NCBI GenBank assembly: GCA_030523325.1
Contig: JAUNIS010000005.1
Span: forward strand, 1-64,000
Direction: 5' to 3'
Source: Phascolarctobacterium sp.
Lineage (GTDB): Bacteria > Bacillota > Negativicutes > Acidaminococcales > Acidaminococcaceae
DNA length: 64,000 nucleotides
The translations under genes and the position numbers were made by a program. Each line of letters starts with the position of its first letter. The first letter of the stretch is position 1. Below, piece by piece: positions 12,562 through 61,023 of this stretch. The notes beneath the pieces were generated by a model. That model saw only the letters and a program-made list of their open reading frames with translations, had not been told where the DNA came from and made no database searches.

Positions 12562-12607
12562 CAATTATTTACCAAAACTATACTAAACAACGCGAAATTA
12601 GTTAGTT

Positions 12608-12775
12608 TTTTACTCTGTCCTTTGGCCTGAGAGATTAAAAAAGAAAACTTTTTTTTACACCTTCGGCGCCCATACGGAACTCTCCAGAGTTGTGTCCATG
12701 TACGGTCTCGTCTTAAAGCAAGGCACCTGAAATAATTAATTCTTCGGCGGAAACAATTCCTTCTCCCGTACATTT
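12608..12775 (-). promoter_or_regulatory. Tandem glycine riboswitch (gcvT type)
   Basis: Two aptamers are visible on the minus strand. The first opens GTACGGGAGAAGG, holds CCGCCGAAG and closes with the pairing arm CCGTAC. The second holds TCTGGAGAG, GGCGCCGAAGG and the hallmark CTCAGGCCAAAGGACAGAG. The two are separated by only a few bases, as in cooperative glycine sensors. It precedes a terminator and the AGCS symporter. Glycine aptamers upstream of such transporters are well known. Confidence 0.93.
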
Positions 12776-26561: not shown

Positions 26562-26978
26562 ATACTTCCCTCCCTACTCGAAACTAGATGTAATCGGCAA
26601 ATGCTTTTCAGGGGTGTTGAAAAGCATGTACATCATTATCGCCAACCTTATTAACATATATACTAGTTATATATATTATAACATTTACATATATATTTGC
26701 ATCATATTCACCCCCTCTAATATAGATTAAACATATATGTCTTATCGTTTTTGATTATATTATTTTTGAGTGCAACTTTACAATTTTATAAAATAATATC
26801 TTTTATTGAAGAATCTTTGACCAAAAGTTTACGTTTTAGTAAATTTTCGGTCTTATTTTTTTGCTCACATACATATTTTTTTTATATTTCAAAGCAAATA
26901 TCCGTATTTTTTTTATAAGACAAAAACAAATATTATATGCTTAAGGATTTAAAAAAATCCAGAAAGGAGAAGAAAATC
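26562..26978. other. Long divergent regulatory region before the propionate operon
   Basis: No ORF here has a ribosome binding site except the CoA-transferase start itself. A perfect 10-7-10 inverted repeat (26601-26627, ATGCTTTTCA/TGAAAAGCAT) lies 40 bases before the LysR start. Several ACATATAT-type motifs follow (about 26655, 26688 and a perfect ACATATATGT palindrome at 26731-26740), which could be regulator sites. I cannot assign a clear -35/-10 pair for the plus strand. Confidence 0.55.
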
Positions 26979-28484
26979 ATGCTAGATCAAACAAGATTAC
27001 GTCATCCGTCTTTATTCAACAAGATCGTAACTCCAGAAGAAGCTTCTGAGTACATTAAAGATGGAATGAACGTAGGCGTAAGTGGTTTCACACCGTCAGG
27101 GTACCCCAAAAAAACCACTATGGCTTTAGCAAAAGCAATTAAAGCTGGCAAGCAATGTCGCATCAATCTTTGGACGGGAGCGTCAGTAGGTCCAGAAATT
27201 GAAGAAGAACTTGCAAGTGTTGGTGGTATCAAGAGTCGTATGCCCTATTATGCAGCCAGCAATAAATCGATGCGTACGGGTATCAATAATGGGGAGATTG
27301 ACTATATCGATCAACATCTTAGTCACTTTGCACAACATATCGACTACGGGTTCTTTGGCGATGTGGACGTAGCAATAGTTGAAGCCGCAGCCATCACAGA
27401 GGACGGAAAAATCGTACTTGGTCCTGGTGTAGGCAATACTCCTATGCTAGTTAAACATGCTAAACACGTTATCGTGGAAGTTAACACCACTATTCCCTTA
27501 TCAATTGAGGGTATGCACGACATCTATATCTGTGCTAAACCACCACTACGCAGAGAAATTCCTATTTATAGTGCAAACGATCGTATAGGTTCTCCTTATA
27601 TGGAATGTGGTTTAGACAGAATCGATTGCATCGTCGAATCTGACATTATCGATCATGTAAGAAATTTAGCAGACCCGGACGAATACAGTATCAAGATTGC
27701 TGAAAACCTTGTAGAGTTTCTTGAAAACGAACAGCGTATGGGAAGACTTCCTAAAGATCAAATGTTACCTATGCAATCCGGTGTAGGCAGCATTGCTAAT
27801 GCAGTACTCCTGGGCTTAGCTAAATCTAAATTTGAAAACCTCACCATGTATTCAGAAATACTTCAAGACTCCGTTTTCAGTTTAATAAAAATGGGCAAAA
27901 TCGTAAGTGCTTCTGGATGCGCATTTACACCTTCTCCTAAAGTATGGAAGATGTACAAGGAAGACCCGGATCTTTATCGCAAAACTATTACGTTAAGACC
28001 TTTGGATATTTCTAATCACCCTGAAGTAATTCGCAGGCTGGGAGTTATCGCTATGAATACTCCAATCGAATTCGATATCTATGGACAAGCTAATTCCACT
28101 CATGTTTTTGGCAATAGCATGATGAATGGTATCGGTGGCAGTGGAGATTACATGAGAAATGGCTTCCTAACGATTTTCTCAACACCTTCCACGGCTAAGG
28201 GTGGTTCTATTTCCAGTATCGTTCCCATGGTAACTCACGCTGACCATACCGAACACGACACTATGGTCTTTATTACTGAACAAGGTGTAGCCGATATTCG
28301 CGGTCTCAGTCCCATTAAGAGAGCAAAACTAATTATCGAAAAATGTGCTCACCCCGATTTCAAAGAACCTCTTTACGATTATTTAAAACTTTCGCAAAGA
28401 AAAAACGGACATATGCCTGTAGATCTTAATCACGCTTTCGATATGCAGGCTCAGTTCGCACGCACGGGTTCTATGAAAAAATAA
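26979..28484 (+). CDS. Acetyl-CoA hydrolase/transferase-family CoA-transferase
   Basis: Cytoplasmic class I CoA-transferase of 501 residues, likely propionyl-CoA (or acetyl-CoA):succinate CoA-transferase. The active-site segment PIEFDIYGQANSTHV (about 365-379) contains the catalytic Glu, and GIGGSGDYMRNG follows, both typical of the Cat1/Ach1 group. The start at 26979 has AAAGGAG upstream; an in-frame ATG at 26937 lacks one. First gene of the propionate operon, whose succinyl-CoA product is the substrate of the mutase encoded next. Exact donor and acceptor are inferred from context. Confidence 0.9.
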   Translation: MLDQTRLRHPSLFNKIVTPEEASEYIKDGMNVGVSGFTPSGYPKKTTMALAKAIKAGKQCRINLWTGASVGPEIEEELASVGGIKSRMPYYAASNKSMRTGINNGEIDYIDQHLSHFAQHIDYGFFGDVDVAIVEAAAITEDGKIVLGPGVGNTPMLVKHAKHVIVEVNTTIPLSIEGMHDIYICAKPPLRREIPIYSANDRIGSPYMECGLDRIDCIVESDIIDHVRNLADPDEYSIKIAENLVEFLENEQRMGRLPKDQMLPMQSGVGSIANAVLLGLAKSKFENLTMYSEILQDSVFSLIKMGKIVSASGCAFTPSPKVWKMYKEDPDLYRKTITLRPLDISNHPEVIRRLGVIAMNTPIEFDIYGQANSTHVFGNSMMNGIGGSGDYMRNGFLTIFSTPSTAKGGSISSIVPMVTHADHTEHDTMVFITEQGVADIRGLSPIKRAKLIIEKCAHPDFKEPLYDYLKLSQRKNGHMPVDLNHAFDMQAQFARTGSMKK

Positions 28485-28519
28485 GCACTTTATTGAAGAG
28501 GATTTTAGGAGGATAAAAA

Positions 28520-30178
28520 ATGTTAGAAAATAAAGAAGCACTAGAAAAAGGTTTAGCAGCTTACAATGCCAAGGTAGAAAAAGCTATTGCAAAATTCCCA
28601 GAAAGAAAAGAATTTACCGAAAAACGTCTTTACACCCCATTGGACGTAGACGAAAACTTTGATTATGACAAAAAACTTGGTTACCCTGGTCAATATCCTT
28701 TCACTCGTGGTGTCCAACCGACAATGTATCGTGGCCGTCTTTGGACTATGAGAGCGTATGCCGGCTTCTCTACGGCTGAAGAATCCAACAAGCGTTATAA
28801 ATTTTTACTCAACGCAGGTCAAACAGGTTTATCAGTTGCATTAGATTTACCTACCCAAATCGGTTTAGACAGTGATGCAGAATTATCTCACGGCGAAGTT
28901 GGTAAGGTTGGCGTAGCTATCGATTCTTTAGCTGACATGGAACAACTTTTCGACGGCATTCCTTTAGATAAAGTTAGTACATCTATGACTATAAACGGTC
29001 CTGCAGCAGTTCTTTTGGCTATGTACGTAGCTGTTGCTGAAAAACAAGGTGTTAAACCAGAACAATTAAAAGGAACTATTCAAAACGACGTATTAAAAGA
29101 ATACATCGCTCGTGGCACTTATATTTTCCCGCCTCGTCCTTCCATGAGACTTATTACCGACACCTTCGAATATTGTTCTAAAAATATTCCTAAATGGAAT
29201 ACTATTAGCGTAGGTGCGTATCATATTCGCGAAGCAGGTGCAAGTGAAGTTCAAGAAGTAGCCTTCGCTTTTGCAAATGCAATCGCATACATTGACGCCG
29301 CTATTAAAGCTGGTCAAAAGGTTGACGAATTTGCTCCTGGTATCAGCTGGATTTTTACAGCTGGTCTTGATTTCTTCTCGGAAGTTGCAAAATTCAGAGC
29401 AGCTCGTAGACTTTGGGCTCGCATTATGAAAGAACGCTATGGTGCGACGGTACCTAAAGCACAAATGCTTCGTGTACATGTTCATACTGCCGGAAGTGTT
29501 CTTACAGCACAACAACCCTTAAATAATGTTGTCCGTATTACCTGGCAAGCTCTTTCCGCAGTATTAGCTGGTATTCAATCCATGGCATGCTGTGCATATG
29601 ATGAAGCTATTGCCCTTCCCACCGAAGAAAGTGCAACCTTAGCACTGAGAACCCAACAACTTATCGCTTATGAAAGTGGCGCAGCAGATACCATTGATCC
29701 TATGGCTGGTTCTTACTACGTAGAAGCACTCACCGATAAATTCGAGAAAGAAGCTATGGAGTACATCCAAAAAATTGACGAAATGGGCGGTGCAGTCGCA
29801 GCAATTGAAAATGGTTACATGCAAGGTGAAATGGCCCTTCATGCTTACGAATATCAAACAGAAATAGAACGAAATGAACGTACTGTTATTGGCGTAAATA
29901 AGTTCGCAGATAACAAAGAAATTAAAACTAACGACGTTCTCACAGCAGACTTAAGCGTAGCTGAAAGACAAATTAACAAAGTCAACGCAATGAAAGCCAA
30001 GAGAGATCAAGAAGCTGTCAACGAAGCATTGGCAAAACTGAAAGCAGCTGCCGAAGGCGAAGAGAATCTGATGCCATATCTGATTGAAGCTGTTAAGACC
30101 TATGCGACCTTAGGTGAAATCTGCGGTATTCTTCGCGAAGTATTTGGTGAATATCAACAAGATGGCTCCATGTTCTAA
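28520..30178 (+). CDS. Methylmalonyl-CoA mutase, large (catalytic) subunit
   Basis: Interconverts succinyl-CoA and methylmalonyl-CoA with adenosylcobalamin. The 552 residues cover the CoA-binding TIM barrel only: [14 protein letters not shown] and [29 protein letters not shown], and a long central barrel to [16 protein letters not shown]. It ends before the cobalamin-binding domain, which is a separate gene 1.4 kb downstream. This split organisation occurs in archaea and several anaerobic Firmicutes. GGAGG lies before the ATG, 35 bases after the CoA-transferase stop. Confidence 0.96.
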
Positions 30179-30206
30179 TTAATTTTGTGTAAAAAAGGAG
30201 ATTTCA

Positions 30207-31580
30207 ATGAGTACCAAAACGTTAGCAAGTTTTACTTCAAAAATCACCTACGAACAACTAAGTGACCATTCAAAAATGATCGCCAAAAAATGTATCCTCG
30301 ATTGGCTTGGAGTTTCTATTCGTGGATCCCAAGAAATTCCTGCAAAAATTTTAAAGGCTACTATATTAGGTGAAGGTGATTGTCCTAACGGTCAAGCGAC
30401 TATCCTTGCTGGGAGCACCCAAAAAACTACAACTCTGCAGGCCGCTATGTTCAATGGCGCGTCCTCCCACACTTTGGATTTCGACGATTTGCACAATCCT
30501 TCGATTATCCATCTAGCTTGTGTAGTTATCCCTGGCGTTCTTTCTTTAGCAGAAGCTAATCATAAAAACGGCAAAGAAATGATTGCTGCAGTATGTGCTG
30601 GTTATGAAGCTGGCGCTCGCATAGGCGAGTCTGTAATCCCAGAGTCATATTTTTTCTGGCACACCACAGGTACAGCCGGTACTTTTGGCGCCGCAGCCGC
30701 AGCCGCTAACATCTTAGGCTTGAACGAACAAGAAACGCTCATGTGTTACGGCAGTGCCGGAACGCAAACCGCTGGTTTATGGGAATTTTTGAAGGAAGGA
30801 GCTATGAGTAAAGCCCTCCATGTAGGCAAGGCCTGCTACGCGGGAGTTCTCTCAGCATTACTCGCAAAAAATGGTTTTACCGGAGCTAGTCAAATCTGTG
30901 AAGGCGAAAAAGGTTTTTGTAGGGCGATGGTTGCCAATCCTCATCTCGAAAAATTAACCGAGAACCTCGATATTAACGATTTAAAAATCGATCATAATTC
31001 TTTCAAACCATATGCTTGCTGCAAACATTCACACGCTTCTAATTATGCAGTACAAACAATTTGCAAAGAAAATTCTATCAAAATCTCTGATATCAAAGGC
31101 ATTAAGCTTTTCGTTAACAACGTAACCAACTTTTTGATCAATAATCCCAATCCACAGAATCCTTATGGATGTAAATTCAGCATTCAATACTGTGTTTCAG
31201 CATGTGCTAAACACGGAGTTGTTGGCATTGAACAATTTTCTCCCGAGGCCATCAATGATCCTGAAGTAAGAGCGTTAATGTCTAATGTAGAGGTTATCCA
31301 AGACCCTGAAGAGGAAGCAATATTCCAAGCGGATGCTTCTAAGCTTGCATCTAAAGTTACCATCATATTAAAAAATGGCAAGGAATATACTATGCAAGTT
31401 GATTATCCTAAAGGAGATCCTGATAATACTCTCACCTGGCAAGAGACAGAAGAAAAATTTATGCATTTAGCAACACCTGTATATGGTGAGCTTAAAGCTC
31501 GTAAGCTTTGTACTCTAATTAAAAATTTAGAAACTTGCACAGACTTTGCTAAAGATTTAGCGATGTGTCTTGAAAATTGA
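30207..31580 (+). CDS. MmgE/PrpD-family protein
   Basis: The 457-residue product matches the MmgE/PrpD fold: [13 protein letters not shown] (about 28-40), [20 protein letters not shown] (about 84-103), and a [16 protein letters not shown] catalytic stretch near 270-285. Known members dehydrate 2-methylcitrate (PrpD) or handle related tricarboxylates, but others isomerise or decarboxylate itaconate and aconitate. No methylcitrate synthase or lyase is adjacent, so the name is family-level. It sits between the two mutase subunits, with tight spacing, which suggests a role tied to the same CoA esters or acids. Confidence 0.87.
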
Positions 31581-31593
31581 GGAGGAAAATAAA

Positions 31594-31980
31594 ATGGCAA
31601 ATATTAAAGTATTAGTAGCTAAACCCGGTCTTGATGGTCATGACCGTGGTGCAAAAGTTGTTGCACGCGCACTTCGTGATGCGGGCTTTGAAGTAATATA
31701 TACTGGCATTCGTCTAACACCAGAGCAAATCGCCAAAGCAGCTCTCCAAGACGACGTTCAAGTAGTAGCATTATCCCTTCTATCCGGAGCTCATAACACT
31801 TTGTTCCCTAAAGTAGTAGAACTGCTTAAAGCCGAAGGTTTGGATAATGTACTCGTTATCGGTGGCGGTGTTATTCCCGATACAGATATTCCTGGCCTCA
31901 AGGCTGCTGGCATTGCCGAAGTATTTACCCCTGGCACCCCTACATCTGCCATCGTAGACTTCATCAATGCCAACATTTAA
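31594..31980 (+). CDS. Methylmalonyl-CoA mutase, cobalamin-binding subunit
   Basis: Small 128-residue subunit that carries adenosylcobalamin for the catalytic subunit. The B12 motif D-x-H-x2-G is Asp14/His16/Gly19 in [10 protein letters not shown], and the later [13 protein letters not shown] and [11 protein letters not shown] segments complete the Rossmann-like domain. The start at 31594 follows GGAGGAAAAT. Length fits a stand-alone B12 domain. It is co-transcribed 13 bases after the PrpD-like gene. Confidence 0.96.
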
Positions 31981-32009
31981 TAATAAAAAAACGAAAGGAG
32001 GAAAATATT

Positions 32010-33536
32010 TTGTCGACACAAGAAAGAATTGAGAAAATGATCAAAAAATCTGAAGCGATCCTCGCCGGCGGCGGTGAGAAACGAGTTGCCAAACAACATG
32101 AACAAGGCAAATTAACTGCAAGAGAAAGAATTAATCTCTTGCTGGACCCTGGTTCTTTTGTAGAATTAGATCGTTTCGTAAAGCATCGTTGCTATAATTT
32201 TGGACAAGAAAAGAAAGAGTGCCCAGGTGAAGGCGTAACTACCGGTTACGGAACTGTAGATGGTCGTTTAGTTTATGTTTTTGCTCAAGATTTTACAGTT
32301 GAAGGTGGTTCTCTTGGCGAGATGCATGCTAATAAAATCGTCAAAGTTCAACGTCTCGCTCTGAAAATGGGTGCTCCTTGCGTTGGTATGAATGATTCTG
32401 GCGGCGCTCGCATTCAAGAAGCGACTGACGCGTTAGGTGGTTATGGAAAAATTTTCTTTGAAAACACTAGTGCGTCCGGTGTAGTACCACAAATTTCTGC
32501 AATCATGGGACCTTCTGCAGGCGGTGCTGTTTATAGCCCTGCTCTTACAGACTTCATTTACATGGTTAAGAATACTTCTCAAATGTTCATTACCGGACCT
32601 GAAGTTGTTAAAACAGTAACCGGGGAAACCGTAACCAAAGAAGCTCTCGGTGGTGCTATGACTCATAACACTAAATCTGGTGTAGCACACTTCGCTGCAG
32701 AAAATGACGAAGATTGCATTAACCAAATTCGTTATCTCTTGAGTTTCTTGCCGTCCAATAATATGGAACCTGCCCCTGTCGTAGAAACAGGTGATAGTCC
32801 CATGCGTATCGACGATGGCTTGAACACTTTGCTTCCAGATAATTCTAATGCTGCATACAATATGTATGATGTCATTACATCTATTGTTGATAATGGCGAA
32901 TATTATGAATCACAAAAATTCTTCGCAACTAATGTCATTACATGTTTTGCACGAATGAATGGTTCAACAGTAGGCATCATCGCTAACCAACCTAAAGTTA
33001 TGGCTGGTTGTCTCGACATCAATGCATCCGACAAAGCAGCTCGTTTCATTAGATTTTGCGACGCATTCAACATCCCGTTGTTAAATATCGTTGACGTACC
33101 TGGATTCTTACCCGGCACTCACCAAGAATATGGCGGTATTATTCGACATGGTGCAAAAATGCTTTATGCATATTCTGAAGCAACCGTTCCTAAAATCACG
33201 CTTGTAACACGCAAAGCTTACGGCGGTTCTTACATTGCAATGTGTGCGCAAGAATTGGGTGCTGACCAAGTAATCGCTTGGCCAACTGCTGAAATCGCAG
33301 TTATGGGTCCTTCTGGTGCGGCTAACATCATCTTTAAGAAAGACCCTGATAAAGATGTTCGCACCGCTGAATATATCCAAAACTTTGCTTCTCCATATTA
33401 TGCTGCTCAACATCAAATGGTTGATCGCATAATCGAACCAAAGAACACTCGTCCTGAAATTTGCAACGCATTACAAATGCTTGTAAGCAAGAGAGAAGTT
33501 CGTCCTGCAAAACGTCATGGCAACATTCCGCTCTAG
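32010..33536 (+). CDS. mmdA: Methylmalonyl-CoA decarboxylase alpha subunit / biotin-dependent carboxyltransferase
   Basis: The 508-residue carboxyltransferase moves CO2 between methylmalonyl-CoA and biotin; with membrane partners it forms the Na+-pumping decarboxylase. Two crotonase-like halves are visible, with the oxyanion and CoA-site segments [28 protein letters not shown] and [13 protein letters not shown], typical of MmdA/PCC beta. The start codon is TTG at 32010, eight bases after AAAGGAGG; the first ATG lies nine codons inside and lacks a site. The beta, gamma (biotin carrier) and delta subunits are not in this window, so decarboxylase versus carboxylase is inferred from the operon. 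Confidence 0.92.
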
Positions 33537-44689: not shown

Positions 44690-45020
44690 AAAAATTCTCC
44701 CCTTTGTTTAGAAATGTATCCTAACATTTCTTTTATATTCCCCTCTAATTAATTAACAAAAATATTTTATTTATTTTCTTTCCTAAAATATACTAAAAAT
44801 AATTATAAAAAGCAAGCAATACTTAAAAGCGCTAAACATAAAATCAAAATAACGATTTTATGATTGACTCTCTCAAAATATAAACACATGTACATCGTGT
44901 GCAATATTGAAGAATTTTAGAGTTTAGAGTATAATATTGTTTGATGTAATTTACGTTAGTTGTAATAGGTTTAAGCAATCAAACGTATAATTTGCAAAAT
45001 TGTAAATGTGAGGGGAACAT
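44690..45020. other. Divergent intergenic region before the MetA-like operon
   Basis: A gene-free AT-rich stretch. It holds the promoter at 44907-44935 and a weak stem-forming pair GTTTGAT/ATCAAAC in the 5' leader of the MetA-like gene. I do not recognise a SAM or other riboswitch, nor any ORF with a ribosome binding site. Confidence 0.55.
44907..44935 (+). promoter_or_regulatory. Promoter of the MetA-like operon
   Basis: TTGAAG and a perfect TATAAT with a 17-base spacer, leaving an 80-base leader before the first gene. Confidence 0.8.
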
Positions 45021-45908
45021 ATGTCGATAATGTTTGATACACGCCTTGAAGCTGCGAAAGTCCTAGCTAGTGAAGGCATTGAAGTTGTAGATAAATTTTC
45101 CGAAAAGGCAAAAAAACTAAATCCTATTAAAATTTGTATCTTTAATTTGTTGCCAGAAAAACCTGCTGCCGAGACTCAATGGTTGCGTGGTCTATCTTTT
45201 TCTGAATACGATATTGAAGTTACCTTTGCTATGCTAGAAAGCCACAAGCCAACTCATACTTCTCAAGAATATCTTGACACATTTTATACAAACCTTACTA
45301 AATTGCAAAATGAATTTTATGATGGTTTGATCATTACTGGAGCCGACGCAGAAAAATATGAGTTTGAAAAGGTTAAATATTGGCCGGAGATGGAAAAAAT
45401 TTTTGCTTGGGCAGATACTCATGTAAAATCCTGTTATTTTTCCTGTTGGGGATGCATGGCTGCTTTATATCATTATTATGGTATTGATAAGCATCTTATC
45501 GGTCCTAAGCTTTCAGGTATTTACGCCCATACTAAACCTAATCCAGAACATATTCTGTTAACTAATCAACCAGCGACTATTTATGTGCCTCATAGCAGAA
45601 TCAGTGGTTATGATCATGAAGAACTTAGAAATTGCAAGGAAGTCACCGTACTTGCTGATGCAGATGGTAGAGTTGGTCCTACTTTGAGTTGCTGTGATGC
45701 TAAAAAACATGTTTATGTCATTGCTCATTGGGAGTACGAGCCTGAGGTTCTGCAAAGCCAATACATTCGCGACACCTCTAAAGGCTTTGACATGCAAAAA
45801 CCAGAAAATTATTTTGATGAGAACGACAACATTCGTCAGGACCAAGATTGGATAAGCCAATTCCATACGATGATGGCTAACTGGGTTCGTTATTATATTG
45901 TAGGTTAA
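45021..45908 (+). CDS. MetA-family acyltransferase (homoserine O-acyltransferase-like)
   Basis: Glutamine-amidotransferase-like fold enzyme of 295 residues. MetA transfers an acyl group to homoserine. The catalytic residues align at E. coli-like numbering: Lys47, Cys142 (in CWG), His236 and Glu238 (AHWEYE). Position 111 is Glu, the state that in B. cereus MetA gives acetyl- rather than succinyl-CoA use. Some motifs differ from standard MetA (AHWEYE for GHPEY, LLPEKPAAETQ for MPTKIETE), and the neighbours are not methionine genes. So the acceptor may be another amino acid (inference). First gene of the operon. Confidence 0.82.
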   Translation: MSIMFDTRLEAAKVLASEGIEVVDKFSEKAKKLNPIKICIFNLLPEKPAAETQWLRGLSFSEYDIEVTFAMLESHKPTHTSQEYLDTFYTNLTKLQNEFYDGLIITGADAEKYEFEKVKYWPEMEKIFAWADTHVKSCYFSCWGCMAALYHYYGIDKHLIGPKLSGIYAHTKPNPEHILLTNQPATIYVPHSRISGYDHEELRNCKEVTVLADADGRVGPTLSCCDAKKHVYVIAHWEYEPEVLQSQYIRDTSKGFDMQKPENYFDENDNIRQDQDWISQFHTMMANWVRYYIVG

Positions 45909-45929
45909 TTATATATAGGAGGAAAAAAT

Positions 45930-46664
45930 ATGAAACTTTGGGAACAATTCTCTGATTGGAAAAAAAATTGTAAATGGGTAGAGCTTAGCCGCGAGGTTAG
46001 TCCCGACACAGTTCACTGGGCAGGCTTTCCTGCTATGGAAGAAAAGAAAATTTTTGACGTTGTAGAACATGGCTTTGATGTATATGTTCATAGTCTTGTT
46101 GGCCAATATGGTACCCATGCAGATGCTCCCAGCCATTTTGTTGCTGGCGCACAAACCTTAGAAAGCTTTACTGCTGGTGATATGGTTATGCCTTTGTGTG
46201 TAATCGATGCTTCCGCTAAGTGTGCAGAAAATCCTGATTACGCTTTAGCTATCGAAGATATTTTAGCTTGGGAAGAAAAACACGGCCGCATTCCTGAGGG
46301 TGCTTTTGTCGCTTTCCGTTCTGACTGGTATAAAAGAGGCGGTATGGCTGAGATGCAAAATGCTGATGCTGAAGGCAAAGCCCATTATCCTGGCTGGGCT
46401 GTAGAAACTATCAAATTCTTGGTTGAAGAACGTAATATCGCAAGTATCGGTCACGAAGCAAGTGATACCGACCCAGCTGCTATCGGTCCTGTTGCAGGAT
46501 ATCCTGGTGAATATTATATTTTAAGCCAGAAACGTTTCCAAATCGAACTGTTAATTAATTTGGACCAAGTTCCCGAAGTCGGTGCTATCATCTTCTGCAC
46601 CTTCCCGAAGGTTAGAGGCGGTGCAGGTTTTACTGCTCGTTGCTTTGCTTTATGCGAAAAATAA
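45930..46664 (+). CDS. Cyclase-family metal hydrolase (kynurenine formamidase-like)
   Basis: The 244-residue product matches the cyclase family (PF04199 type), metal-dependent amide or ester hydrolases. The metal motif HxGTHxDxPxH is present with a substitution: it reads QYGTHADAPSH at 59-69, with Gln for the first His. A later SIGHEASDTD and a closing FPKVRGGAGFTARCFAL complete the fold. GGAGG precedes the ATG 21 bases after the MetA-like gene. In this operon it may remove an acyl or formyl group from an amino-acid derivative. Confidence 0.87.
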   Translation: MKLWEQFSDWKKNCKWVELSREVSPDTVHWAGFPAMEEKKIFDVVEHGFDVYVHSLVGQYGTHADAPSHFVAGAQTLESFTAGDMVMPLCVIDASAKCAENPDYALAIEDILAWEEKHGRIPEGAFVAFRSDWYKRGGMAEMQNADAEGKAHYPGWAVETIKFLVEERNIASIGHEASDTDPAAIGPVAGYPGEYYILSQKRFQIELLINLDQVPEVGAIIFCTFPKVRGGAGFTARCFALCEK

Positions 46665-46681
46665 AAGAGAGGTAAAAGAAA

Positions 46682-47881
46682 ATGTCTTTACGTTTTGCTG
46701 AGCGTATGCTTGGAGAAAAATCCAACGTTGTAAAGGAAGCATTAAAATTAACAGCTCAACCTGATATCATTTCCTTTGCTGGTGGCTTGCCTGCACCAGA
46801 ATCTTTTCCTATTAATGAAATAGAGCTTGCTTCCGCAAAGCTTTTTGTAGAAAAAGGTACTAGCGCTGTTCAATATAATTGTATGGAAGGTTTACCTGCC
46901 TTGAGAAATAAAATCGCTGAACGTATGACTAGTTGTCATAACATTAATTGCACTGCTGATGAGATTATGATTACTAGCGGCTCTCAACAAGGCATCGACA
47001 TGTCCGGTCGTATTTTCTTAAATCCCGGAGACTATGTTGTTTGTGAAAGCCCAACCTATACTGCTGCGGTTACAACTTATAAAAATTATCAAGCCAACTT
47101 CCTGGCTATTGATACAGATGACGAGGGCATGATCATCGAGGACTTGGCAGCTAAACTTGCAACTTGTCCCAACGCCAAACTCATCTACGTTATTCCTAAC
47201 TACCAAAATCCTTCTGGAAAAACTTGGTCTGTAGAACGTCGTAAAGCTTTGTTGCAATACGCAGAACAATATAATATTCCTATCGTAGAAGATAATCCTT
47301 ATGGTGAATTACGCTACGAGGGCGAAGAATTACCTTCCATTAAAAGTATGGATACGAAGGGCTTGGTTCTCTATATGGGTTCCTTCTCCAAGGTTTTATG
47401 TCCTGGCTTCCGTGTAGGCTATATCATCAGCAGCCCTGAGATTATGGATATGCTTTGTCAAGTTAAGCAATCAACCGATTTACAATCGAGCACCTTTACG
47501 CAAATGGTGATCTTCCAATATTTAACCGATAATGATATTGACAAACATATCTTAGAGTTGCGTGCAATTTATAAGCATAAACGTGACTTAATGCTTGGAA
47601 CTATGGAAAAATGTTTCCCCAAGGAAGCTAAGTTTACTTATCCTCATGGTGGCATGTTTACATGGGTCGAGTTGCCTAAGGAAATTGATACGCAAGAATT
47701 GTTCCCCAAAGCTATCGCTAAAAAAGTTGCTTATATTCCCGGCGCAACCTTCTTCCCCAATGGCGGAGTTAATAATTGCTTACGTATGAGCTATTCCAGT
47801 TCTAGCGATGAACAAATCATCAAAGGCATTACTGCTTTAGGCGAATTATTTACAGAAGCTGTCGCTGCTTTGAAAAAATAG
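46682..47881 (+). CDS. PLP-dependent aminotransferase (class I/II, 2-aminoadipate/aromatic type)
   Basis: Fold-type I transaminase, 399 residues. The start shows the DIISFAGGLPAPESFP motif of the LysN/ARO8-like group. GSQQGIDMSGRIFLNPGD, VIPNYQNPSGKTWS and the PLP lysine in GSFSKVLCPGFRVGY are all present and complete. Substrate range of this group is wide (aminoadipate, aromatic, methionine-derived acids). It lies 17 bases after the cyclase gene and 11 before the cupin, so it is co-transcribed and likely acts on the same compound. Confidence 0.93.
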   Translation: MSLRFAERMLGEKSNVVKEALKLTAQPDIISFAGGLPAPESFPINEIELASAKLFVEKGTSAVQYNCMEGLPALRNKIAERMTSCHNINCTADEIMITSGSQQGIDMSGRIFLNPGDYVVCESPTYTAAVTTYKNYQANFLAIDTDDEGMIIEDLAAKLATCPNAKLIYVIPNYQNPSGKTWSVERRKALLQYAEQYNIPIVEDNPYGELRYEGEELPSIKSMDTKGLVLYMGSFSKVLCPGFRVGYIISSPEIMDMLCQVKQSTDLQSSTFTQMVIFQYLTDNDIDKHILELRAIYKHKRDLMLGTMEKCFPKEAKFTYPHGGMFTWVELPKEIDTQELFPKAIAKKVAYIPGATFFPNGGVNNCLRMSYSSSSDEQIIKGITALGELFTEAVAALKK

Positions 47882-47892
47882 GAGTTATAAAA

Positions 47893-48228
47893 ATGTTTGG
47901 TATTAGAGATGAAGCGATTGAAGAGTACCCGCTTCCTGGAGTGACTCGTCGCATTTTAACTTATAATAAATATTTAATGGTTATGGAAGGCCATTTAGCT
48001 AAGGGCACAGTCGTTGACCACGCGCATCCTCATACTCAGATCACTTACGTTGTATCTGGTGAGATGGAAGTTACTGCTGAAGGAGAAAAGCGTCATTTAA
48101 AAGCTGGTGACTGTGTTGTCGCAGAACCCAATGTTCATCATCTTGTAGTCGCTTTGACTGATGTTGTTCTGATTGATACCTTTAATCCCTGTCGCGAGGA
48201 TTATATTCCCGAGCGTGACAAAAAATAA
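47893..48228 (+). CDS. Single-domain cupin protein
   Basis: The 111-residue product has the two cupin metal motifs: HAHPHTQITYVVSGE (about 38-52) with its His and Glu residues, and GDCVVAEPNVHHLV (about 75-88). Small cupins bind a metal and act as isomerases, dioxygenases or ligand sensors. In an anaerobe an isomerase or binding role is more probable. Last gene of the MetA-like operon, followed by a strong terminator. Confidence 0.88.
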   Translation: MFGIRDEAIEEYPLPGVTRRILTYNKYLMVMEGHLAKGTVVDHAHPHTQITYVVSGEMEVTAEGEKRHLKAGDCVVAEPNVHHLVVALTDVVLIDTFNPCREDYIPERDKK

Positions 48229-48257: not shown

Positions 48258-48303
48258 AACTAAAACGGACCTGGTGAAATTAACACTAGGTCCGTTTCTT
48301 TAT
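48258..48303 (+). terminator. Terminator of the MetA-like operon
   Basis: Fourteen-pair stem (48262-48275 with 48284-48297, one wobble) and T-rich end. Confidence 0.85.
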
Positions 48304-48341: not shown

Positions 48342-50279
48342 TTATTCTTCTTCAAAATGATATGCGTAATTGAATCCATCTAAGATAGCTTCAGTAATTC
48401 TACCTGCTTTAGAGCAATCGCCAAGTTCAAAAACACGCATGCCTTCAGTTTCTAATTCATCTGCAAGTTTTGTGTTAGGTCTAACTCCGAGAGCGAGAAC
48501 AATTTTGTCGCAGTCAATGGCTGCACTACCATTTTCCTTCTTGACAATAATACCTGTCTCGGTTACCTCTGCCAACGCGGTATTTGTATTTAAAGCAACT
48601 CCTAATTTTTCCAGACGATTAACGATATCATTTTTAATGACAGGGAAAAGCCCAGGAGCAATAGCCCCTTGCATTTCATAGACTGCAACCTCACAGCCAT
48701 GCTCTGCGAGTAATTCGGCAGTTTCCAGCCCGGTTAGTCCACTGCCAACGACAGCAACCTTGCCGGAAATATTTTGACAGGATGTGCGAATAACATCTTC
48801 AGCCAAAATGACTTTAGGACTATTGATGCCTTTTAAAGGTGGGACAATAGGCTTGGAACCACAAGCTAAGAAAACACCTTCAGGTTGAAGGTCTTTAAGC
48901 ATAGACGCAGTAACAGAAGTATTCGTCTTGATTTGCACTCCTGCTTGCTTGAGCTCTGCAATCATGCATTCTTTAAGACCAGTAAGCTTTTCTTTAAAGC
49001 TAGGCTTTTCAGCAAGATTTAATGTTCCACCAAGCTTGTCGTCTTTCTCTAAAAGTGTTACAGCAAAATTACGCTCTGCAAGAGTAATAGCTGCCTGCAT
49101 ACCTGCAGGGCCAGCGCCAACAACACAAACCGGACGCTTATTACCATTTTTTGTTAAAGAAGGATATTCTGTTTCCCGTCCCATACGGGGATTAACCGTG
49201 CAATGAACAGACAAGCCGCCAATTAAACGTTCACGACAATGCATGCAACCAATACATTTTCTCAAAGGCATGCCTGTAGCTTGAGTTTTGTTCATGAATT
49301 CCGGGTCAGCAAATTGTGAACGTCCAAGGGCAACAAAGTCGCAGACGTTTTCTTGTAAAAGTTGTTCAGCCCACTCTGGATCCTTAACTGTATTGGTCGC
49401 GATGATGGGAACATTTACTGCTGCTTTAATATCGGCAGCGACATGTTTCTTCCATCCAGGTTGATAAGAATAAGGATCGCAATTGGCATTAGCATTGAAT
49501 GCGTTGCCGTTAGAAACATTGATATAATCGAAGCCGATAGCAGCAAATTCTTTGGCTATGGCAATGCCGTCCTCTTTGTTCAAGGTGCCGCTGACATGAG
49601 GTGTCATTTCATCACCGCTGAAACGGATACCTACAAGATAGGCAGGACCAACAGCCTTACGAACTGCTTGATATATTTCCGAGAAAATACGCAGACGATT
49701 CTCAAAGCTACCTCCGTAACAATCGGTACGATTATTATAATACGGAGCTAAAAACTCACCTAAAAGATATGCGTGAGCAGCGTGAAGCTCTACACCATCA
49801 AAGCCTGCTTGTTTAGCACGCAATGCACAATCAACAAATTCTTGAATAACAACATGAACTTCTTCAGTTGTCATGGCATGAGGCGGCTGGGTTACAGACA
49901 CAAAAGGAATCTCACTCACGCCCCATGGCTTTGAACCATCGGGCATAGGACCAGAGGCTGCGCCTGGATGAATCATTTGCAGGACTATTTTGGTGCCGTA
50001 GGCATGTACGCCACGCACAAGCTTTTCAAAAGCTACAAGATTAATTTTATCTGCTAGAGCCAATCTATTAGGACCAGAATTACAATGTGTTCGAGCTATG
50101 TCTGTGCCTTCAACGATAATTAAGCCAATGCCCCCACGAGCTCTTTCGGAATAATATTTAATCACAGCTTCACTGGGACTACCATCACGTAGTGCTTGAT
50201 TAATTACCATAGGAGACATGACGGCTCTATTTTTTAATTTTAAACGGCCCAACCTAGCGGGCTGCAATAATAAACTCAC
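48342..50279 (-). CDS. Old-yellow-enzyme/2,4-dienoyl-CoA reductase-type flavoenzyme
   Basis: Three-cofactor oxidoreductase of 645 residues. The N-terminal FMN TIM barrel (about 1-330) has GFDGVELHAAHAYLLGEFL. A [4Fe-4S] site follows (CIGCMHCRERLIGG, with a further Cys near HCTVNP), then an FAD/NAD(P)-binding region with GAGPAGMQAA and VAVVGSGLTGLETAE. This is the FadH/trimethylamine-dehydrogenase build, here probably reducing an enoate or enoyl-CoA. The start is GTG at 50279 with GGAGGG before it. Monocistronic, no regulator adjacent. Confidence 0.92.
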   Translation of the reverse strand: MSLLLQPARLGRLKLKNRAVMSPMVINQALRDGSPSEAVIKYYSERARGGIGLIIVEGTDIARTHCNSGPNRLALADKINLVAFEKLVRGVHAYGTKIVLQMIHPGAASGPMPDGSKPWGVSEIPFVSVTQPPHAMTTEEVHVVIQEFVDCALRAKQAGFDGVELHAAHAYLLGEFLAPYYNNRTDCYGGSFENRLRIFSEIYQAVRKAVGPAYLVGIRFSGDEMTPHVSGTLNKEDGIAIAKEFAAIGFDYINVSNGNAFNANANCDPYSYQPGWKKHVAADIKAAVNVPIIATNTVKDPEWAEQLLQENVCDFVALGRSQFADPEFMNKTQATGMPLRKCIGCMHCRERLIGGLSVHCTVNPRMGRETEYPSLTKNGNKRPVCVVGAGPAGMQAAITLAERNFAVTLLEKDDKLGGTLNLAEKPSFKEKLTGLKECMIAELKQAGVQIKTNTSVTASMLKDLQPEGVFLACGSKPIVPPLKGINSPKVILAEDVIRTSCQNISGKVAVVGSGLTGLETAELLAEHGCEVAVYEMQGAIAPGLFPVIKNDIVNRLEKLGVALNTNTALAEVTETGIIVKKENGSAAIDCDKIVLALGVRPNTKLADELETEGMRVFELGDCSKAGRITEAILDGFNYAYHFEEE

Positions 50280-56248: not shown

Positions 56249-57259
56249 TTATTTTAGCACACCAATTTCTTTGTAGTATTTAGCAGCGCCCGGATGCAAC
56301 GGCATATTGGAAATATCTTTAACAGCATCTTCAGGTTTTAAACCTTTAAGATTCTTCTGAGCTTTACCAAGCTTATCGATATTGGTCCAGAAAGATTTAG
56401 TCAAATCGTAGATAACTTGTTCAGGAAGATCGCCACGGCAGAACATAACCATTTTAATTGCAGAAGTCTTAACATCTTCTTTTTGGTTAGGATAAGTGCC
56501 GGCTTTAATTGTGTAAGGAGCATACCAAGGATATTTTTTCTTCAGATTAGCCATGGTAGCATCATCAATGCTAATGAGATGGCATTTAGAAGCAAGAGCT
56601 TGAGATACAGCAGCTGCCGGAGCACCAGACATAATCCAAGCACCGTCGATGGTGCCGTTTTGTAATTGGTCAGCTGCAGCAGCAAAGCCGATGAGTTGTG
56701 CGTTCAAATCATCAGGGAATTTCATGCCGACAGTAGTCAAGTGAGCTTGTGCTTCATTATATACGGAAGAACCAGCAGCTGCTACAGCAAATTTTTTGCC
56801 TTTGATATCTGCCAATGTTTTGATGCCAGATTTATCAGTGGCAACAATTTGGTTCGGATTCATATAAAGACCAGCAATAGCTTTCAAATCCTTGTAAGCA
56901 TGGTCTTTAAAGCTATCAGTACCGTTCAAGCATTGATAAGCGTTGGAAGAGATTGCGATAGAAATTTGTGCTTCGCCATCAGAAACCATACCGAGATTTG
57001 CAATACCGCCAGCAGATGCTTGAGAAGAAGCATTAACAGAGGGAACTGTTTGGTTCCAATTATTAGTAATAGCTGCACCTACAGCATAGAGTGCACCAGC
57101 TGCACCAGCAGTCGGGAAATTGATTTTCAATTTTTGACCAGCTGCAGCCGGTTTAGCTTTGGGTTCTTCTTTTTTCTTTTCACCACCGCAACCTGCTAAG
57201 CAACCAATTGCGAGAGAAGCGATAACGCCTGCTACTAAAAATTTTTTCATTAATTTCAT
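56249..57259 (-). CDS. TAXI-family TRAP transporter substrate-binding lipoprotein
   Basis: The 336-residue precursor has a lipobox (CLAGC, Cys near residue 24) and a TAXI-type periplasmic binding domain: FPTAGAAGALYAVGAAITN, QASAGGIANLGMV and the LKGLKPEDAVKDIS end. It hands a dicarboxylate, glutamate or similar ligand to the fused permease encoded upstream. Two ATG codons are possible; 57259 is preferred since AGGAAG lies six bases before it. The gap to the permease gene is 48 bases. Confidence 0.92.
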   Translation of the reverse strand: MKLMKKFLVAGVIASLAIGCLAGCGGEKKKEEPKAKPAAAGQKLKINFPTAGAAGALYAVGAAITNNWNQTVPSVNASSQASAGGIANLGMVSDGEAQISIAISSNAYQCLNGTDSFKDHAYKDLKAIAGLYMNPNQIVATDKSGIKTLADIKGKKFAVAAAGSSVYNEAQAHLTTVGMKFPDDLNAQLIGFAAAADQLQNGTIDGAWIMSGAPAAAVSQALASKCHLISIDDATMANLKKKYPWYAPYTIKAGTYPNQKEDVKTSAIKMVMFCRGDLPEQVIYDLTKSFWTNIDKLGKAQKNLKGLKPEDAVKDISNMPLHPGAAKYYKEIGVLK

Positions 57260-57306
57260 TTTCATCTTCCTTTCCTGTTATGAAAATTAAATAATAAATT
57301 TATTTA

Positions 57307-59274
57307 TTAAACCGCAACACTGCCTTTGCGATTCATAAACTGATAAACTACAACAACTGCAAAGCATGCAAAACCAATTGCATCGGTCATGGTGCCTGCA
57401 TGTAAAAGAAGAGGACAAGCCACTGCTAAAAGAACTCGTTCCATAACGCTGGCGTTTTTTAGAACCCAACCCTCGAGCGCTGCGACCAAAGCGATCGTTC
57501 CAAGGCTTGCTGTAAAAATAGTCCAACCACTTTGAGCTATGGAAGCTGCTTTATCAACGCCAACTAGTAGCACTGGATTATCCAAGAAGAAGAAGGGAAT
57601 AATAAATCCGATAAGGCCAAGTCTTACAGCCCAAATACCCGTCTTCGTTTGATCAGACCCAGCTATGCCCGCGGCCACGTAGGCACTCATCGCAACAGGA
57701 GGCGTGATATTAGAAAGACACGCATAGATTAAACAGAAAAGATGAGCTGTAATAGGAAGAGTACCTGCATCGATAAGCACAGGAACCGCAACAGCTTGAA
57801 CGATTACGTAAGCAGCTACACCTGGAACACCCATACCAAGAATGGTGGACATAATCATAACAAAAAGACCTGTAAGATAAATATTGTTATTATCCACAAT
57901 AGAGAGGATTAGGTAACCCATATTAAGTCCAATGGATGAAAGAGTTACCGTACCGATGATTACACCGATAACTACGCAGCAAACACCAACGCTAATTGCA
58001 CTACGTGCGCCCTCAATGGTAGCTGCAAGAATTTTATCAAGCCCCATGCGTGTTTCTTTACGAAACCAGCTAGCAATGATCGTCGCAAAAATACTTACGA
58101 CTGCACTATAAAGAGGCGTGTAACCTGCAAGCATTAATCCGATTAGAGTTACAAGAGGAATAACTAAATGACCTTGCTCTTTTAAAACCTTCATGGCGTC
58201 AGGAATATTTTCTTTAGAAAGACCTGTCAGTCCCAAGCGTTTTGCCTCAAAATGTACGGAAAATAAAAGACCAAGGTAATACAAAAATGCCGGCACGAAA
58301 GCAGCTAGCATAACTGCAGTATAACCAATGCCTAAAAATTCTGCCATGACAAAGCCAACTGCACCCATAATCGGAGGACAAAATTGTCCGCCCGTTGATG
58401 CAACAGCCTCTACTGCACCAGCAAATTCTTTTTTATAGCCCGTGCGTTTCATCAGGGGAATGGTAATGGTGCCCGTTGTCGCTACGTTAGCGATGGCTGA
58501 GCCGTTAATCATGCCTAATAAAGCAGATGCGACAACTGCAACCTTTGCTGGGCCACCAGATGTTTGACCGACTAAAGTTAGAGAAAAATTATTGATAAAA
58601 TCGGAGAAACCACTATGCTTTAAGAAAGCACCAAAAACCACGAATAAGAAAATATAAGTTGCAGATACACCGATACCAGTACCGAGCACACCCTGCGTTC
58701 CCCAGAACTGCGTAATCAAAACACGTTTTAAAGTAAAACCATTGTGTCCGAGTAAACCCGGCAGGTAAGCGCCAAACCAATTATACGCCAAGAAAATTAA
58801 CGCAAGGAACATTAAATTACCTGACGCTCTACGAGCTGCTTCAAAAACCAAGAACAAAGCAACAGCTGCTATGCCTAATTCAAACTGATCGACTCGCCCG
58901 CCCATAGCAGCTATGCGAGTATAATTCATAATAAGATAGCCGAACGTTCCCACTGATAAAACAATGCATAGGATATCCCAAACGGGAGGCAAAATTCTTA
59001 CGCGTTTTTCTTTTTTATAAGCAGGAAAAAGCAAGAAAGTAAATACCAAAAGAAAAATACAGTGAAAAGCTCTCAGGTTAATGGCACTGATAGAGCCAAT
59101 CGTCGTGTAATACAATTGAAATACTGTCCAAATGCAAAGCAGAACTGCAATTGCTTTCCCCATGAAGCCTGTATATGTTCTCATACGAGAATCGGCTTCC
59201 TTTTCTTCGAGCATGGCCTGAGCTTTTTTCTCTAGCTCAGTGTCAGCTACGAATGTTTCTTTTTTATCCGTCAA
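57307..59274 (-). CDS. TRAP transporter fused permease (DctQM type)
   Basis: Large inner-membrane permease with about 16-18 helices; the small DctQ-like part (about 40-200) is fused to the DctM part (from about 220). Typical DctM segments are GSAIANVATTGTITIPLMKRTGY, GGQFCPPIMGAVGFVMAEF and GMGVPGVAAYVIVQAVAVP. Transport is driven by Na+ or H+. The predicted start is TTG at 59274, giving 655 residues, because GAGGTGA lies just before it; an ATG at 59292 is an alternative without a clear site. It is the first gene of the TAXI-TRAP pair. Confidence 0.9.
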   Translation of the reverse strand: MTDKKETFVADTELEKKAQAMLEEKEADSRMRTYTGFMGKAIAVLLCIWTVFQLYYTTIGSISAINLRAFHCIFLLVFTFLLFPAYKKEKRVRILPPVWDILCIVLSVGTFGYLIMNYTRIAAMGGRVDQFELGIAAVALFLVFEAARRASGNLMFLALIFLAYNWFGAYLPGLLGHNGFTLKRVLITQFWGTQGVLGTGIGVSATYIFLFVVFGAFLKHSGFSDFINNFSLTLVGQTSGGPAKVAVVASALLGMINGSAIANVATTGTITIPLMKRTGYKKEFAGAVEAVASTGGQFCPPIMGAVGFVMAEFLGIGYTAVMLAAFVPAFLYYLGLLFSVHFEAKRLGLTGLSKENIPDAMKVLKEQGHLVIPLVTLIGLMLAGYTPLYSAVVSIFATIIASWFRKETRMGLDKILAATIEGARSAISVGVCCVVIGVIIGTVTLSSIGLNMGYLILSIVDNNNIYLTGLFVMIMSTILGMGVPGVAAYVIVQAVAVPVLIDAGTLPITAHLFCLIYACLSNITPPVAMSAYVAAGIAGSDQTKTGIWAVRLGLIGFIIPFFFLDNPVLLVGVDKAASIAQSGWTIFTASLGTIALVAALEGWVLKNASVMERVLLAVACPLLLHAGTMTDAIGFACFAVVVVYQFMNRKGSVAV

Positions 59275-59421
59275 GAGACTCACCTCAAACATTAACAAAT
59301 TTTTAGAATTGATAATTATTTATTATATCATATTAAAGGTTTAAATGGTATACAACATTAAACAAATATATCACAATAATTTCAAATTATTGCAGATTAT
59401 ATTTTTCTTCAAGAGAATCCC

Positions 59422-59565: not shown

Positions 59566-61023
59566 ATGGAATTAACTGCTACCGCTAAGCTTCGTCGTAT
59601 GGTTCTTGAACACATTTCTCGTTACACCTGGAACGATGCCTTAATCGACCATGTTTATGACATTTTACAAGAAGTGCAAGACGATACTCCTCGTTATCGT
59701 TGCTGTGTATATAAAGAAAGAGCAGTTTTAAAGAATCGCATCGATATGGCTCTCGGTCAAACAACCGATCAAAATATTATCGAGGCTTCCAAAAAGACTC
59801 TCTTTAACCCCGAGCGCAAGGATCTTCCCCTTATCGATGTGCTTCCTGCAGCTTGTGACCAATGTCCTATTGAAAAATATTACGTAACGGATATGTGCCG
59901 TCACTGCATCACTCATAAATGTATGGATAATTGCCCTAAGCATGCTATCTCTCGTATTCAAGATCGTGCTTTTATTAATAGAGACTTGTGTGTTGAATGT
60001 GGTCGTTGTAAGCAAAGCTGTCCTTACGGTGCAATTATTGAAATCAGTCGTCCATGCGTACGTGCTTGTGCAATGGGTGCAATTTCTATCGGAGAAAATC
60101 GCAAAGCAGTCATCGATCATGAAAAATGTGTTACCTGTGGTGCTTGCCGTGATGCTTGTCCCTTCGGCGCAATAGATGAACGCAGCAATATCGTCCGTGT
60201 TATTAAAGCCATCAAAAGTTCTCGCAAGGTTATCGCTATGGTAGCTCCTTCCATCATCGGTCAATACGGTTTTAAAATTAAACCCGGTCAAGTTTACGCA
60301 GCTCTGAAAAAAGTTGGCTTCGATGAAATCGTCGAGGTTGGCGTGGGCGCAGATATTACAGCTAAAGTAGAAGCTCTCGAGTACCTAGAAAAAGTTCCCG
60401 AAGAAATTAAATTTATGACGAGCTCCTGCTGTCCTGCCTTCGTAAAAATGATCAAGACTCATTTGCCCGAAGCCGCTTGTCATATTTCACAAGCCCCTTC
60501 CCCCATGGTTTCTACTGCTCTTATGGTTAAGCATGAACATCCTCACGCAATCACTGTCTTCATCGGTCCTTGCATTGCAAAAAAAGGCGAGGCTCATGAG
60601 CATAGCGATTTAATCGATTACGTTTTAACCTTTGAAGAAGCTCAATGCATGTGTGAAGGCAAGGATATTTATATTGCTGAGATGGATCCTAGCGAATATG
60701 AGCGTGATGCATCAAAGCTCGGTCTCGGCTTTGCTCTCACAGCCGGTGTAAGTGCGGCTGTTGAAGATACAGTTGCGGCTGTTGGCGGTCACGTAAGACT
60801 AGGTCATTACGCATCTGGCTTAGACAAATGCTTGCGTGACTTAAAGGATGTTTGTGCCGGCAAGCTCGACTGCAGTTATTTTGAAGGCATGGCTTGCCCT
60901 AACGGTTGCATCGATGGTCCTGGTACTGTTGGCGATTTCCGTCTCACGAAGGTTGCTCTTACTAATTATGCTAAGGCAGCTCCTAACCAAGTATGTCTTG
61001 CAGATAAACACACAAAAGAATAA
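59566..61023 (+). CDS. Single-subunit [FeFe] hydrogenase (group B-like)
   Basis: Ferredoxin-linked hydrogenase of 485 residues. The N-terminal half binds several [4Fe-4S] clusters: C-x2-C-x4-C-x3-C at 111-123, then ferredoxin-type sets at 142-152 and 188-198, with extra Cys at 97, 100, 164 and 168. The H-cluster motifs follow: TSSCCPAF (Cys288/289), GPCIAKK (Cys336) and EGMACPNGC (Cys444, 448). All four H-cluster Cys are present; the usual Met before PC is Gly, and GG is NG, features of divergent (group B) enzymes. It may reoxidise ferredoxin or take up H2. GGAGG precedes the ATG. Maturases HydEFG are not in the window. Confidence 0.9.
   Translation: MELTATAKLRRMVLEHISRYTWNDALIDHVYDILQEVQDDTPRYRCCVYKERAVLKNRIDMALGQTTDQNIIEASKKTLFNPERKDLPLIDVLPAACDQCPIEKYYVTDMCRHCITHKCMDNCPKHAISRIQDRAFINRDLCVECGRCKQSCPYGAIIEISRPCVRACAMGAISIGENRKAVIDHEKCVTCGACRDACPFGAIDERSNIVRVIKAIKSSRKVIAMVAPSIIGQYGFKIKPGQVYAALKKVGFDEIVEVGVGADITAKVEALEYLEKVPEEIKFMTSSCCPAFVKMIKTHLPEAACHISQAPSPMVSTALMVKHEHPHAITVFIGPCIAKKGEAHEHSDLIDYVLTFEEAQCMCEGKDIYIAEMDPSEYERDASKLGLGFALTAGVSAAVEDTVAAVGGHVRLGHYASGLDKCLRDLKDVCAGKLDCSYFEGMACPNGCIDGPGTVGDFRLTKVALTNYAKAAPNQVCLADKHTKE

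Follow-up and report, generated by a model that had tools for sequence, protein, structure and literature searches.

In the underground MetA-MetB route of Escherichia coli, MetB converts O-acylhomoserine to 2-oxobutyrate (PMC7476758). In the PF04199 family, the members with glutamine in place of metal-binding histidine include a metal-dependent carboxylesterase and a trans-dienelactone hydrolase (PMC5341072). The cupin KdgF opens the ring of 4,5-unsaturated uronates, with the aspartate of its DTFxPxRxD motif serving as the catalytic acid-base and with roles assigned to both the Asp and the Arg (PMC11381880). Here we describe a five-gene cassette in a 64,000-nucleotide stretch of Phascolarctobacterium sp. 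(the window, contig JAUNIS010000005.1) in which relatives of these enzymes stand side by side: a MetA-like acyltransferase, a PF04199 cyclase-family hydrolase, an aminotransferase and a KdgF-like cupin, followed by a convergent flavin ene-reductase. The cassette is composed of known enzyme families in a new combination. A search of the literature found no description of this combination, of a MetA clade outside methionine synthesis, or of the restriction to two genomes reported below.

The window genome (G000) is a draft of 92.55% completeness. A second carrier was found in G034, a draft (73% complete) metagenome-assembled genome (MAG) of Phascolarctobacterium from horse faeces, in which the five genes occur on contig JAKSOJ010000032.1 (G034:C162) in identical order and orientation. 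The identities between the two copies are 78% for the MetA-like protein, 83% for the cyclase, 80% for the aminotransferase, 84% for the cupin and 72% for the ene-reductase. The cassette of the window is flanked by an SDF (DAACS) symporter gene on one side and by rlmH-htrA on the other, while the order in G034 is asd, lysC, dapA, a terminator, the genes of the MetA-like protein, cyclase, aminotransferase and cupin, the convergent ene-reductase gene and an HU gene. Because the five genes are kept together in both genomes while their flanks differ, they are regarded as one unit. This agrees with a preliminary description of the window, in which the first four genes were proposed to form a unit that matches no textbook route; when that four-gene set was sought in other genomes, it was recovered in G034 with the ene-reductase as a fifth member, a gene absent from the operon as first described. 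The preliminary description had also suggested that the divergent DAACS symporter imports the substrate. This suggestion was not supported, as dapA-lysC-asd and the HU gene occupy the flanks in G034, and the two cassettes share neither a symporter nor any other dedicated transporter.

Among 59 Acidaminococcaceae genomes, the MetA-like clade is confined to G000 and G034. The ene-reductase has the same distribution, its next best relative being 36% identical, and the full set of five genes is found in no other genome of the family. The horse-faeces MAG is also the sole close relative among 84,980 species genomes, within the sensitivity of the peptide-pattern search used. No other MetA with more than 39% identity to the MetA-like protein is present in 380 genomes of the class, and none above 37.4% in the plasmid collection. 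Viral contigs hold no relative of this protein, and a viral origin of its gene was rejected on that ground. The aminotransferase and the cupin have plasmid-borne relatives as well, the nearest of which lie among unrelated genes. In codon comparisons between the window and G034, the nonsynonymous divergence (dN) is 0.11-0.14 for the four operon genes, with synonymous divergence (dS) of at least 1.4 and saturated for the metA-like gene; over all five genes, dN is 0.11-0.22 and dS ranges from 1.4 to saturated. Purifying selection acts on all five proteins. The cassette appears to be gained or lost as a unit within Phascolarctobacterium. No convincing repeats marking the ends of a mobile element were found around it, and its G+C content is near that of its neighbours.

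The first four genes are intact open reading frames on the + strand, separated by gaps of 21, 17 and 11 bases. A purine-rich ribosome-binding stretch lies ahead of every one of them, and the four genes of the preliminary description stand where it had placed them. The operon terminator that it had claimed was also confirmed. It lies at 48263-48297, where 35 bases form a near-perfect inverted repeat with a folding energy of -23.8 kcal/mol (z = -7.7), and the near-palindromic hairpin could serve the convergent ene-reductase gene as well. The strong promoter claimed for the operon fared differently. A promoter-like match, TTGAAG-17-TATAAT at 44907-44935 (+), fits 10 of 12 consensus positions, but the upstream region holds 20 such matches and 19.7 are expected from shuffled sequence, so that an operon promoter is not established.

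The MetA-like protein (45021-45908, + strand, 295 residues) matches the HTS/MetA domain (PF04204, E 3e-83) over its full length. It shares with canonical MetA the Cys-His-Glu triad, Lys47, Glu111, Arg250 and the PHSR motif, while differing in its identity of 33-39% to the canonical MetAs found, in its placement in another operon and in the lack of a MetB or MetY partner in the genome. It was compared with 40 other MetAs, comprising 29 from a family search, 10 from the class and one plasmid-borne actinobacterial sequence. The two cassette copies form their own clade with support of 1.0, and its stem measures 1.15 substitutions per site. The 40 canonical MetAs have 61 invariant positions, of which 40 are kept in both cassette copies, including Lys47, Cys142, Trp143, Ser192, Arg193, His236, Glu238 and Arg250, and 18 are changed in both: M44L, L57G, N60F, Q64D, P109D, A145C, G182N, F183Q/M, D184P, G235A, E247Q, P266D, P274D, L283T, N290R, V293I, Y294V/K and Q295G. 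The triad (Cys142, His236, Glu238), the acetyl-type Glu111 and the changed motifs were thus all read correctly in the preliminary description. Both MetA equivalog models score the protein well below their cut-offs (272.1 of 460.5 bits for NF047918 and 261.4 of 495 bits for TIGR01001). In E. coli MetA, Q64E gives resistance to feedback by methionine and S-adenosylmethionine (PMC10963904), and by analogy D64 may remove this control from the cassette protein. We infer that the acyltransfer chemistry has been retained and that the acceptor or the control has been altered. Serine is one acceptor to be considered, since in some lactic acid bacteria a MetA-family enzyme O-acylates serine. Such a role in cysteine synthesis would suit the acetyl-type Glu111 and the altered residues on the acceptor side. 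However, the cassette has no cysteine synthase or sulfur gene and the other four genes would be left unexplained, so that we consider this reading quite improbable.

The preliminary description had held that the absence of a second MetA, together with complementation of a metA mutant, would speak for ordinary methionine synthesis with chance neighbours. In that reading the cassette enzyme would simply be the homoserine O-acetyltransferase of the genome. The MetA-like protein is indeed the sole MetA homologue in the window genome, yet no MetB, MetC or MetY was found in G000 or G034 by a Cys_Met_Meta_PP search, which did not extend to MetX or the DUF39-type homocysteine route. The best matches in these two genomes are weak and partial, at most 46 bits, as other pyridoxal phosphate (PLP) enzymes give, whereas true Cys_Met_Meta_PP enzymes in relatives score 395-477 bits. 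In three other species of the genus (G035, G036 and G038), a canonical metA adjoins a Cys_Met_Meta_PP gene. It is possible that a methionine gene was missed in the drafts, but the same gap in both genomes makes this unlikely. Both carriers encode homoserine dehydrogenase and an S-methyltransferase domain of the MetH type, which, together with the retained triad, Lys47 and Arg250, favour the methionine assignment. Against it stand the 18 altered residues, the two failed equivalog cut-offs and the neighbours, which are not there by chance, as they stay with the gene although the flanks differ. With its partner enzymes missing, the MetA-like protein is unlikely to serve ordinary methionine synthesis. 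It is noted that two other draft genomes of the genus, G033 (79% complete) and G037 (60% complete), have no MetA, MetB/MetY or cassette, so that Phascolarctobacterium species may commonly have lost the de novo synthesis of methionine.

The cyclase-family hydrolase (45930-46664, + strand, 244 residues) belongs to PF04199 (Cyclase, E 2e-33; 116.3 bits against a cut-off of 23.1) and carries the GTHxDxPxH core. As the preliminary description had noted, its motif QYGTHADAPSHF has Gln at the position of the first metal His. This is a trait of the subfamily and not a loss, because all 12 aligned members, the window's included, share the pattern Q[YFW]GTHxDxPxH. The core and the overall length are common to isatin hydrolases, KynB and PF04199 esterases. 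The isatin hydrolase signature (HxG[T/A]HxDxPxH with GLQC/GLAS) is absent, as Gln replaces the first His and QIEL stands at the second element. At the position of Gln219 of isatin hydrolase A, the cassette enzyme has Glu, as does KynB; its score in the KynB arylformamidase model (TIGR03035) is 22.7 bits against a cut-off of 223.05. The nearest solved structure is 8f9x, followed by isatin hydrolases. In the characterised Gln-type enzymes (PMC5341072) both histidines are replaced by Gln, in contrast to only the first here. The enzyme may hydrolyse an ester, a lactone or an amide. Another recurring pairing is that of the cyclase subfamily with a methionine-type enzyme. Two cyclase relatives from other Bacillota (L052 and L055) and one on the Pediococcus plasmid NZ_CP015919.1 (L080) adjoin or sit near a short MetE-like methyltransferase gene; on the plasmid, an APC permease gene lies between the two.

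The aminotransferase (46682-47881, + strand, 399 residues) is a fold-type I PLP enzyme (Aminotran_1_2, E 3e-41) that is closest to archaeal multi-substrate or LysN-type and to kynurenine/alpha-aminoadipate aminotransferases. It falls far below the DapL cut-off (TIGR03540, 115.7 of 593 bits). The cupin (47893-48228, + strand, 111 residues; Cupin_2, E 1e-13) aligns over its full length with the KdgF structures 5fpx, 5fpz and 5fq0 (E 1e-18 to 1e-13). It shares with KdgF the HxHx3Q...H metal ligands and the DTFxPxRxD motif with the catalytic Asp and Arg, and is accordingly classed as KdgF-like. However, its neighbours are amino-acid enzymes instead of pectin or alginate genes, and no uronate gene lies in or beside the cassette in either genome. 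The ene-reductase (48342-50279, - strand, 645 residues) has the architecture of 2,4-dienoyl-CoA reductase, with a Cys-rich cluster motif and 1ps9 as the nearest solved structure. This arrangement of old yellow enzyme (OYE), iron-sulfur and pyridine-nucleotide domains is common to 2,4-dienoyl-CoA reductase, BaiCD and the long bilirubin reductase. The cassette protein lies below the equivalog cut-offs of BaiCD (425 of 825 bits), bilirubin reductase (407 of 750) and the mycofactocin OYE (447 of 793). A 36% identical relative (L104, G008:C140:8793-10718) has one in-frame TGA codon, which could mark a pseudogene, an assembly error or recoding.

Three of the five genes recur outside the genus. Vescimonas fastidiosa, a gut bacterium of the Clostridia (Oscillospiraceae) and the top match in the plasmid collection for both the ene-reductase and the cyclase, has a row of aminotransferase, ene-reductase, cyclase, AhpD-like and class V PLP enzyme genes, with identities to the window of 40%, 46% and 52% for the first three. 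The three probably belong together outside Phascolarctobacterium, and their consecutive order in Vescimonas supports a single pathway. One way to read this is that a cyclase/aminotransferase/ene-reductase core breaks down a host or diet compound, for example a lactam, an unsaturated cyclic acid or a kynurenine-like molecule, and that the MetA-like enzyme and the cupin were added for a special substrate. The occurrence of the core by itself in Vescimonas fits this, as do the gut-anaerobe lifestyle of both cassette hosts and the relationship of the aminotransferase and cyclase to kynurenine aminotransferase and formamidase. On the other hand, a catabolic unit with no dedicated transporter conserved alongside it is less easily explained, and the likeness to kynurenine enzymes is at the family level only (22.7 of 223 bits for arylformamidase). 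Breakdown of such a compound is a possible, though somewhat unlikely, function.

The location of the G034 cassette after asd-lysC-dapA brings in another alternative, namely N-acylation, transamination and deacylation by the cyclase, as in the acyl-diaminopimelate (acyl-DAP) or acyl-ornithine pathways. The preliminary description had likewise proposed, as one reading, an acylated amino acid that is deacylated and transaminated. All three types of activity are represented, and the Glu of the cyclase corresponds to a KynB-type site that acts on a linear amide. But in G034 dapA is parted from the cassette by a terminator, evident in the sequence itself, and by a new promoter-like stretch, and in G000 the cassette lies elsewhere. 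DapH_N was found in none of 11 family genomes, cassette-free ones included, so the cassette is no replacement for it. Moreover, known MetA enzymes acylate oxygen and not nitrogen, and the chemistry of the ene-reductase and the KdgF-like cupin would go unused. We hold N-acylation to be improbable. A role in lysine or DAP synthesis suggested by the G034 neighbours was rejected as the main reading, given the terminator after dapA, the different flank in the window, and the absence of DapH and of above-cut-off DapL from cassette-bearing and cassette-free genomes alike.

We tentatively favor a scheme in which the five-gene cassette processes an amino acid or its ring or ester form, and does not serve methionine synthesis, while rating it below an even chance. 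Homoserine or a close analogue would be acylated at its side-chain hydroxyl by the Cys-His-Glu triad of the MetA-like enzyme, with Glu111 pointing to acetyl as the acyl group. Next, the aminotransferase would convert the alpha-amino acid to the 2-oxo acid, upon which the acyloxy group would become a good leaving group. The metal cupin, with its KdgF-like acid-base Asp, could promote elimination of this group, or ring-opening or tautomerisation of the product, and the flavin ene-reductase would reduce the resulting alpha,beta-unsaturated carbonyl. The cyclase may act at one end of the route, where it could release the amino acid by hydrolysis of a lactone, lactam or amide, or could cleave an ester. 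With homoserine as substrate, the product would be 2-oxobutyrate. The specific version, an anaerobic route from O-acylated and transaminated homoserine through cupin-generated 2-oxo-3-butenoate to 2-oxobutyrate by the OYE-type ene-reductase, would employ a MetA removed by evolution from methionine synthesis and is a doubtful one. It shares with the MetA-MetB route the shedding of the acyl group from O-acylhomoserine to yield 2-oxobutyrate, but would use the aminotransferase, cupin and ene-reductase in place of the one-step elimination by MetB.

The sequence establishes that the five genes are present and inherited together, that the acyltransferase has a MetA-like active site and that the usual methionine partners are missing, whereas the substrates are what we infer. 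Several points weigh against the favored scheme. The full set occurs in just two genomes, both of them drafts. No riboswitch or other regulatory RNA was found upstream of the operon to tie it to an amino acid. The Vescimonas trio has no adjoining MetA-like or cupin gene, and these two genes look like Phascolarctobacterium additions to an aminotransferase/ene-reductase/cyclase core. Nothing in the data fixes homoserine as the acceptor, and the homoserine version can give the cyclase only a forced role. Glu246/247 lies on the homoserine side of the MetA active site, and E247Q, at a position where Glu is invariant in the 40 canonical MetAs, may mean a different acceptor.

Elsewhere in the window, a glycine riboswitch aptamer (12605-12697, - strand, 59.6 bits) lies immediately upstream of the gene for a Na+/alanine-type symporter (11142-12485, - strand). 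Genes of the succinate-propionate route, encoding CoA-transferase, methylmalonyl-CoA mutase and carboxyltransferase, span 26937-33536 (+), with an MmgE/PrpD-family gene at 30207-31580 among them; the methylmalonyl-CoA genes are consistent with a Phascolarctobacterium-like (Negativicutes) genome. A monomeric group B1 [FeFe] hydrogenase (59566-61023, + strand; 537 bits, above the cut-off) adjoins a TRAP-TAXI transporter pair at 56249-59298.

Automatic annotation and metabolic models commonly take MetA as a marker of methionine synthesis. With a MetA-family clade that lacks the rest of the pathway and is tied to another gene set, such models could wrongly predict a methionine producer. The cassette itself would represent a small five-enzyme pathway of gut anaerobes in which acyl transfer is joined to transamination and ene-reduction.

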